Assembly: GCA_025062155.1 (NCBI GenBank)
Contig: JANXAM010000003.1
Location: 1 to 64,000, forward strand
DNA from: Gloeomargarita sp. SKYB120
GTDB lineage: Bacteria; Cyanobacteriota; Cyanobacteriia; Gloeomargaritales; Gloeomargaritaceae
Reading direction: 5' to 3'
Length of the DNA: 64,000 nucleotides
This document shows, piece by piece, positions 42,324 to 44,816 of the stretch; the stretch's first letter is position 1; each line of letters opens with the position of its first letter. The position numbers were made by a program, and so were the translations under genes. The notes beneath the pieces were generated by a model, which was not told the DNA's origin, made no database searches, and saw only the letters and a list, made by a program, of their open reading frames with translations.

Positions 42324-43712
42324 TCACTGTGGCTCCGGCGTGGATTCAGGAGCCTGGGGAGGCGTTGCGGGAGCGGCTGTCACCGTTTCAGTCGGTGTGG
42401 CCGGCGACGGAACAACCCTTGGCTTTTTCGCCGCTGGTGCATAAAGCATTCCCGTAGGCCGGGGATGGCTCACCTGCTTGGCCGCCGGTTCGTAGAAAAT
42501 CCAGGTCTGGGGCCGGTACACCACCTGGTACAGCGTCTGGCGCACTCCATTGATCGCCGTCAGGGCGGGTCTGGACGCACCCTGGACCGGTTCATACAAG
42601 GCATCGCTCGCGGGCGGCGTCAAGGCCGGCATCGGCACGAGACGGGGTTCATAGACCACCTCCGGCAACGGGGGTGCACTGCACTGAAAACGCGGGTGAT
42701 ACACCGCCGCCTGCTCAGCCCACCAGGACCGGAACATCTGCGTCACATCCAGACCCATCGCCCGCTGGAAGTGCCACAGGCTGCCTTGCAGGAAGAAAAA
42801 CGCCAGGTAGAAATGGGCATTGGCCAGCCACACCCGCGCCGAGTACACCGTCGCCCCTGTCGGGTCGTAGTAGGCCGGTGTCAAGGCAGACCGCAGTTTG
42901 AGGGCCGGGCCGTAAAACACCTCGGGATAGGCCAGCGTGTTAAACCCGCAGTAGTAGGACGCCGCAAACCCCGCTAGGGCAATGCCAAACAGGGAATAGC
43001 TCAAAATCCCGTCAGCGGAAAACAAAAAGCGGCGTTTCACCCAACCAAACGGCGGCACCAGGATATGCCAGGTTCCCCCCAGCAGCAACAGCACCGCCAC
43101 GTAGACATGCCCCCCCACTAAGTCCTCTAGGTTGTTCACGTCAAACAGGTGGGTGCGGTAGTCCCAAATCCGGACCCAATCCAGGGTCGGTTGCACAGTG
43201 CGCACCTGCCCGAGCGTCGCATCGTAGAGTCCACCACCAATGGTGGCCTTTGCTACCAATAGCAGCGCCCCGAGCCCCAACACCAGCAGGTGATGGCCCA
43301 GGATCAGGCCCAGTTGCCGTTCGTCGTCCCAGCGGAAGTGGAATTTCCCCGCTGGCGGCGGCACCATCTCTAAGGTCTGGGGCAACCGGGTGAAATGGAA
43401 CCAAGCGCCCCAGGCCAGCACCCCAGCGCTCACCAGGTGGAAACCAGCCACCGCCACGTAGGGAAAGACGTTAACCACCTGACCGCCGGCGCCGACCCCC
43501 AACCCTAGCGTCGCCAGGTGGGGCAATAAAATCAGCCCCTGTTCGTACATCGGTCGGGTCGGGGTGTAGCGGGTCAGTTCAAACAGCGTCATTAGCCCCA
43601 CCCAGAACACGATCAAGGCCGCGTGGGCCACATGGGCCACGATGAAGGTGTTGGACAGGTCGGTCAACCGTGCATTCCCCGCCCACCACGGATAGCGTTG
43701 CGTTTTGTTCAT
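42324..43712 (-). CDS. isiX: CP43-like chlorophyll-binding antenna protein, IsiX-like, with long C-terminal tail
   Basis: A 462-residue protein of the CP43/IsiA/Pcb family. Residues 1-335 hold six membrane helices with the family's histidines (Val-Ala-His-Val-Ala-His, Gly-Phe-His-Leu, Leu-Gly-His-His-Leu, Gly-Gly-His-Val-Tyr, Asn-Ala-His-Phe-Tyr, Leu-Trp-His) and the N-terminal Trp-Trp-Ala-Gly-Asn-Ala-Arg-Leu. The large CP43 lumenal loop is absent, as in IsiA. The remaining about 125 residues form an extension rich in Pro and Ala with six Tyr-x-Pro motifs (338, 354, 373, 399, 407, 424), not PsaL-like. Gene order apcD4-apcB3-isiX is that of low-light photoacclimation clusters, hence the name; IsiA or Pcb assignment is the alternative. 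Confidence 0.82.
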
Positions 43713-43771
43713 AGCTACACCTGCACGCCCAAAAACGCTCCCCCGGTTGGACCAGGGGAACACCGTTGCCG

Positions 43772-44257
43772 TTAGCGCAAACCGGCAATGATGTGGTCTA
43801 GATATCGCGCCAGCTCCTGTCCCGCCTCGGTGCCCACTGTCTCGTTCAAGACCTCCTTCATGGCGTTCAGGGCCTGGATCACGCGGTCAATCGGCACCCC
43901 CAGCGTCTGGTAGGTCTCTTTCAGACCGTTCAGCACCCGCTCGTCGAGGATGGACGTATCCGCCGCCAGCATCGCGTAGGTGGCAAAGCGCAGGAAATAA
44001 TTCAAATCCCGCAGACAGGCGGCATAGCGACGGGTGGGATACATATTGCCCCCCGGCAGCGTGATGTCCCCGTACAGCAAACTTTTCGCCACCGTACGGC
44101 TGATGATTTGGCTAGCAGTGGCGCTGATCGTGGCCGCCGCTTTGACCCGCATCATCCCCCGCTCAAAATACTGCCGGAGTTGACTGAGAGCGGCGTCACT
44201 CAGATATTGCCCCTGGACATCCGCGGAGTTAATCAAGGCTGTGATCGTATCTTGCAT
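43772..44257 (-). CDS. apcB3: allophycocyanin beta subunit paralogue, ApcB3-like
   Basis: A 161-residue phycobiliprotein. It opens Met-Gln-Asp-Thr-Ile-Thr as ApcB does, carries the methylated-type Asn71 in Pro-Gly-Gly-Asn-Met-Tyr, and the bilin-attachment Cys81 in [10 protein letters not shown]. The latter half ([12 protein letters not shown]) is strongly ApcB-like while the N-terminal third differs from the core ApcB I remember. Core apcB is normally paired with apcA and apcC, absent here; the partner is the diverged alpha subunit upstream, hence ApcB3. GAGGAGAT precedes the ATG. Confidence 0.85.
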
Positions 44258-44342: not shown

Positions 44343-44816
44343 TTAAAACGCGCGGATTAAACGGTCAAAGTAGGGGGCGGCCAAGGCCATTTCCTCTGGC
44401 GAGAGGATGCCTGCTGTGACTTCCTTGAGACTGGTCATCGCAATGCGTAAATTATTGAGCGGCACCCCTAACGACACGTACATTTCCCGCATCCCGTTCA
44501 GGCCAATATCCTCGAGGGGTTTATCGTTGCCCGCTAGGACGCAGTAGCTAATCAGCCGGATGTACCAAGCTTGGTCCCGCTGGCACAGAGCCGTTTTTTG
44601 GGCATCCCCCCGGTTGCTAGGTGTATTGGGGCACTTGGCCCAAAAGCGTTGGCTGCCCTCTTGCACAATCTTGCGCTCATTGGCCGCCAATTTCTGCGCC
44701 ACTTGAATCCGCAATGCCCCTTTGCTAAAAAACTCCTCTAACTTGTTTAATTCGGCACTGCTGAGGAAACGGTCAGCAGCATCCGATTGAGCAATCACTT
44801 GCGCAACGATACTCAT
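44343..44816 (-). CDS. apcD4: allophycocyanin alpha-B-like subunit, ApcD4-like
   Basis: A 157-residue alpha-type phycobiliprotein beginning Met-Ser-Ile-Val-Ala-Gln-Val-Ile, with bilin Cys78 in Lys-Thr-Ala-Leu-Cys-Gln-Arg-Asp. It differs from ApcA in the chromophore pocket region before that Cys and ends Ala-Pro-Tyr-Phe-Asp-Arg-Leu-Ile-Arg-Ala-Phe. ApcD-type subunits bind phycocyanobilin in a way that shifts absorption to the far-red; ApcD4 with ApcB3 is known from low-light acclimation clusters. The extra 53 codons open upstream are not family-like, and ATG 44816 fits homologues. It is the first gene of the operon. Confidence 0.82.
   Translation of the reverse strand: MSIVAQVIAQSDAADRFLSSAELNKLEEFFSKGALRIQVAQKLAANERKIVQEGSQRFWAKCPNTPSNRGDAQKTALCQRDQAWYIRLISYCVLAGNDKPLEDIGLNGMREMYVSLGVPLNNLRIAMTSLKEVTAGILSPEEMALAAPYFDRLIRAF

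Follow-up and report, generated by a model that had tools for sequence, protein, structure and literature searches.

The low-light antenna protein IsiX encoded by Gloeomargarita sp. SKYB120 carries a C-terminal tail with a row of conserved tyrosines, and this tail probably serves as a disordered, multivalent, linker-like tether for the far-red allophycocyanin of its own operon. The gene lies in a window of 64,000 nt (positions 1 to 64,000 of contig JANXAM010000003.1). The tail itself and the proposal that it binds the allophycocyanin of the operon have already been published: Olsen et al. described in 2015 a C-terminal extension of IsiX of nearly 100 residues (PMC4477158), Chen et al. reported in 2019 a Gln- and Pro-rich extension of ~150 residues as common to such homologues and labelled it 'function unknown' (PMC6416890), and Gisriel et al. 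solved in 2023 the helical ApcD4-ApcB3 nanotubes, with seven protomers per 72.6 Å, and found that FRL-AP co-purifies with IsiX (PMC10038336). The latter authors proposed that an extension of 127 residues is a ruler which threads the tube and brings it to photosystem I (PSI), with wrapping around the outside as the alternative. No mention of a tyrosine repeat was found in the available portions of this openly accessible IsiX literature (PMC4477158, PMC6416890, PMC10038336), and as far as checked, neither the invariance of the tyrosines nor the coreless derivatives described below had been reported before.

The isiX gene and its antenna core

The isiX gene is located directly downstream of apcB3 in the order apcD4-apcB3-isiX, an arrangement named the LoLiP cluster in the literature, and the operon is flanked by a sigma factor gene and a PmbA/TldD-like gene. 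The three genes are:

42324..43712, minus strand: isiX, 462 aa, six-helix IsiA/CP43-like chlorophyll antenna plus C-terminal tail
43772..44257, minus strand: apcB3, far-red allophycocyanin beta subunit, 161 aa, PF00502, 67–95% identity to the ApcB3 adjoining all other tail genes
44343..44816, minus strand: apcD4, alpha subunit, 157 aa, MSIVAQ start, PF00502

The isiX open reading frame is uninterrupted from 42324 to 43763 on the minus strand; we placed the start at the internal ATG at 43712, where the homologues begin, which gives 462 aa with residues numbered from M1, and the alternative start is a GTG at 43763, adding 17 aa upstream. The product matched PF00421 with 198 bits and TIGR03041 with 394 bits, above the cut-off of 335. 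An AF2 model based on 19 homologues contains six long helices (residues 20–48, 83–109, 131–157, 195–218, 233–257 and 292–318), followed by an additional short helix (323–337). The best structural match of the core was PSI-bound IsiA (TM-score 0.90 by target length, 57% identity), and in the sequence search IsiA was also nearer than CP43 (E 1e-123 versus 8e-87). The protein combines this six-helix core of the IsiA/CP43 type with a C-terminal extension and an operon containing apcD4 and apcB3, and it does not end shortly after helix 6 as IsiA proper does; the gene in the window is an ordinary isiX. In the helix-6 region (42738–42869 of the window), the QGHLWH of IsiA is changed to QGS- or QGG-LWH in IsiX with one otherwise conserved histidine gone, which agrees with a remark in PMC6416890.

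Among the neighbours in the window, no photoreceptor gene of the LcyA type adjoined the operon. Such a gene adjoins the operon in Synechococcus A1463 and is absent from some related operons (PMC12214013), and an adjacent photoreceptor is not a defining feature of IsiX, the LoLiP antenna. The host genome is 2.48 Mb in size and its closest relative is Gloeomargarita sp. SKYG116, with 83% identity in IsiX. A PF00421 search of the host genome (96% complete) returned isiX, one short fragment and two long photosystem II-type genes, and a separate IsiA was not seen.

Tyrosine motifs of the tail

The tail and its tyrosines are located as follows:

42324..42707, minus strand: C-terminal tail, residues 336–462 plus stop codon, matched by the family-wide profile
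42699..42701, minus strand: Tyr338 (AVYHP), column invariant
42651..42653, minus strand: Tyr354 (VVYEP), column invariant
42594..42596, minus strand: Tyr373 (ALYEP), column invariant
42528..42530, minus strand: Tyr395 (TLYQ), column invariant, not followed by the YxP proline
42516..42518, minus strand: Tyr399 (VVYRP), 88% conserved
42492..42494, minus strand: Tyr407 (IFYEP), column invariant
42441..42443, minus strand: Tyr424 (MLYAP), 88% conserved

The initial annotation had described six Tyr-x-Pro motifs in a tail of ~125 residues, and these were confirmed at residues 338, 354, 373, 399, 407 and 424. They contain six of the seven tail tyrosines, against a mean of 1.0–1.3 in shuffled tails (p = 5e-5 to 2e-4), and for 43 non-redundant tails the YxP total of 120 exceeded both the mean (46) and the maximum (73) of 2000 shuffles. 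Although Tyr-x-Pro is thus more frequent than expected by chance, the conserved element is the tyrosine and not the proline: Tyr338, 354, 373, 395 and 407 are unchanged in 43/43 tails while most of the intervening tail is variable, and proline follows the tail tyrosines at +2 in 26% and at +3 in 28%. Tyr395, which had been missed at first because no proline follows it, is among the invariant residues. The tail consensus reads hydrophobic/aromatic-Tyr-(Gln/Glu)-(Pro/Thr/Ala), and the invariant unit is hydrophobic-Tyr-(Gln/Glu) instead of Tyr-x-Pro. Successive tyrosines are spaced irregularly, at 16, 19, 22, 4, 8 and 17 residues, and the spacing differs among lineages. The Pro/Thr/Ala end pointed out in the initial annotation is present, but is unconserved and lineage-specific, being common to only two close relatives.

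A frameshift or mis-joined frame near the start of the tail, a possibility raised together with the repeat, was rejected, as nearly all relatives read through in one continuous frame. In the complete genome of Synechococcus sp. SynAce01, isiX is present as two overlapping frames of 250 and 267 aa (L025:9968–11511), representing either a frameshift or two translationally coupled halves.

Residues 336–462 have a pLDDT below 50 and are without secondary structure in the AF2 model. PMC4477158 suggested that the extension contains a further transmembrane helix; this is not supported for the protein of the window, in which the maximum 19-residue Kyte-Doolittle mean is 0.49 and AF2 gives no helix. 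Searches with the tail alone against Pfam, NCBIfam and PDB gave no relative and no confident Pfam match, and no linker family was matched when the phycobilisome linker domains PF00427 and PF01383 were considered; PDB matches to mitoribosomal proteins were dismissed, since they cover only the WHxxRAMG stretch. Despite its predicted disorder, the tail is under purifying selection as judged from codon comparisons of intact pairs, with dN/dS ratios of 0.15–0.19 for the tail and 0.04–0.10 for the core, which are rough values as dS (~1 or more) is partly near saturation. The concern that the tail could be common to all IsiX and disordered without a partner held in its first part, the tail being present in all IsiX found and predicted to be disordered, but the invariance of the tyrosines argues for a partner. 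One isiX tail (G188, L103) contains a recent in-frame tandem duplication of 177 bp (95.5% identical), and another (G082, L016/L043) an older, partial duplication, as would be expected for a multivalent repeat in which the number of sites can change.

Co-occurrence with ApcD4 and loss of the core

Within 390 cyanobacterial genomes, the tail profile (A1) had matches in 32 and ApcD4 was present in 32, the latter being told apart from other ApcA/ApcD by a gap in identity (at least 66% versus at most 54%). Tail and ApcD4 were found together in 31 of the 33 genomes having either (Fisher p ~1e-43, kinship ignored), with one exception each way (G348 and G363), and in both exceptions the operon reaches the contig end. 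The apcB3 gene adjoins every tail gene inspected, as does apcD4 wherever the contig is long enough, and the tail is spread over eight families once further genomes are included. The tail was not detected on other genes, with IsiA paralogues stopping 10–31 residues past the helix-6 motif, and none was found on phages or plasmids. In family f27 (L081, L141–L146), isiX and apcD4-apcB3 lie on different strands and converge, and the isiX tail is strongly diverged with the tyrosine motifs kept. The co-occurrence and adjacency of tail and ApcD4 would also be expected if the tail had another partner that is required only in this regime, such as PSI or an assembly factor.

Retention of the tail without the core is the strongest indication that its role concerns allophycocyanin, and not the chlorophyll antenna or a photosystem. 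Three congeneric species (G197, G549 and G551) have, behind apcD4-apcB3, an isiX frame of 173–177 aa, in which an N-terminus (MYASNKTQERYPWWAAIARFIDLSNTFIGK in G197) is joined in frame to a complete tail and the six-helix core is deleted:

L102:2122–2643, plus strand: coreless isiX
L155:1045–1563, minus strand: coreless isiX
L156:1157–1687, minus strand: coreless isiX

Full-length isiX is present in a congener (G554) and in sister genera (G499 and G416). Misassembly was rejected as the origin of the coreless gene, with three species having the same junction region. No second IsiX core was found in G197: apart from psbC, the genome has just one truncated fragment resembling IsiA (L133:1632–2165, G197:C76), which is probably a relic.

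Selection on the coreless gene after the deletion is likely from the substitution pattern rather than proven, because the near-identity of G197 and G549 makes the comparisons non-independent. The whole gene has a dN/dS of 0.40–0.42 (P = 0.015–0.018 against neutrality, in two non-independent comparisons), the frame is open in all three species with the indels of G551 in frame, the tyrosine columns are kept (10/10 in G197, and tyrosines also in G549 and G551), and the adjacent apcD4 and apcB3 genes are strongly constrained. These observations argue against the coreless gene being a slowly decaying relic that is uninformative on tail function, a reading which we consider doubtful, even though the gene evolves faster than intact tails (dN/dS 0.40–0.48) and may be in the process of being lost, the tail part on its own gave P = 0.07–0.09, and the tails of G197 and G549 differ by five non-synonymous and no synonymous changes.

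A proposed tether for far-red allophycocyanin

The hydrophobic-Tyr-(Gln/Glu) motifs, mostly 16–22 residues apart, may function as short docking peptides, each of which would dock on a repeated site along the helical ApcD4-ApcB3 polymer, or nanotube. In this way the membrane-bound IsiX would hold, and perhaps measure, the far-red antenna and hand energy to PSI. Several elements of this proposal are what we infer, namely the direct contact between tyrosine and allophycocyanin, its position in the lumen or on the outer face, the use of a single motif for each protomer, and the role of PSI as the acceptor. Binding of the tail to the allophycocyanin of its operon had been suggested in the initial annotation, and it gains from the near-perfect co-occurrence with ApcD4 and the persistence of the tail after core loss, although the idea itself had been published before (PMC10038336). 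The accompanying suggestion of a tether to photosystem II was not upheld, as the core is much closer to the PSI-binding IsiA than to CP43 and the published model puts IsiX at PSI.

The homology of the core with IsiA (57% identity, TM-score of 0.90 to the PSI-bound form) could also fit a tail that binds a photosystem, either PSI or photosystem II, and positions IsiX there, with allophycocyanin on another site of IsiX. The tail leaves the core at the end of helix 6, which lies on the cytoplasmic side in IsiA and CP43, and this exit likewise counts for photosystem binding. We regard such a role as improbable, since IsiA, which is tail-less, already binds PSI, and since the tail is missing from the IsiA paralogues, tracks ApcD4 and is retained where the membrane core is gone; for the photosystem II version, CP43 is moreover the more distant relative of the core. 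A purely passive tail, serving as a disordered spacer or for solubility with no specific partner, in which Tyr and Pro reflect composition only, would be in line with the AF2 disorder, the richness in Pro, Ala and Gln, the low overall identity and the unconserved end of the tail. It is already disfavoured, and in our view very unlikely, given the five tyrosines invariant in 43 tails, the family-wide excess of YxP over shuffles (120 against 46), the tail dN/dS of 0.15–0.19 and the restriction of the tail to genomes with ApcD4.

The tether to far-red allophycocyanin was compared with the geometry of the nanotube, using a rise of 10.4 Å, a twist of 102.9 degrees and assumed inner and outer radii of 15–25 Å and 50–55 Å. 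Inside the tube, neighbouring protomers are ~26–40 Å apart, corresponding to 8–12 extended residues, so the motif spacing of 16–22 reaches inside neighbours with slack and is sterically feasible; neighbours on the outer face need 24–26 residues and are mostly out of reach, except across helical levels. The spacing does not discriminate between the inner and the outer face. When extended, the tail measures ~270–300 Å from the first to the last tyrosine, over twice the ~114 Å of a tube of 12 protomers, which makes a straight axial ruler unlikely. A strict axial ruler with one motif per protomer was set aside, as the irregular spacing is against it and the geometry does not demand one.

Phycobilisome linkers fill the cavities of allophycocyanin, with mainly Tyr and Phe facing the bilins (PMC8448738), and the free nanotube exposes to solvent the face of the beta-bilin over which a linker would lie (PMC11614940), which makes one tyrosine per beta-bilin in the lumen plausible. 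We tentatively suggest that the tail could represent a new type of phycobiliprotein linker, consisting of short tyrosine motifs that thread the lumen with one tyrosine per open beta-bilin site, and able to work off the membrane antenna, as in the coreless 173-aa proteins. The tyrosine row bears on what keeps FRL-AP nanotubes at the membrane and what sets a limit to their length, and the invariant tyrosines are targets for point mutation, while the coreless protein is a natural small soluble ligand which makes the published ruler model directly testable with recombinant ApcD4-ApcB3.

IsiX of Synechococcus A1463 (PMC4477158, PMC10038336) and IsiA2 of Halomicronema hongdechloris (PMC6416890) resemble the protein of the window in having a six-helix IsiA-like core, an extension of ~100–150 residues and adjoining apcD4-apcB3 genes, whereas the operon of the window differs from that of Synechococcus A1463 in lacking the adjacent photoreceptor gene. 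Compared with Leptolyngbya-type tails, those of Gloeomargarita lack the last one or two tyrosine motifs and have different ends. IsiA (CP43') of the PSI-IsiA supercomplexes (6nwa, 6kif, 9lzj) shares the core fold and ~57% sequence identity with IsiX, but terminates 10–31 residues past the helix-6 WH motif and keeps QGH where IsiX has QGS or QGG. The IsiA-PsaL fusion antenna (7y3f chain 1) also has a C-terminal addition to the antenna core, which is a folded PSI membrane subunit in contrast to the disordered tyrosine string of IsiX. The phycobilisome linkers (ApcE, CpcG, CpcL and ApcC; PF00427/PF01383) are globular, without sequence or fold relation to the unfolded, repeat-based tail, yet share with it a proposed role in which a polypeptide rich in aromatic residues organises allophycocyanin and connects it with a photosystem, and CpcL is membrane-tethered like the tail of IsiX.
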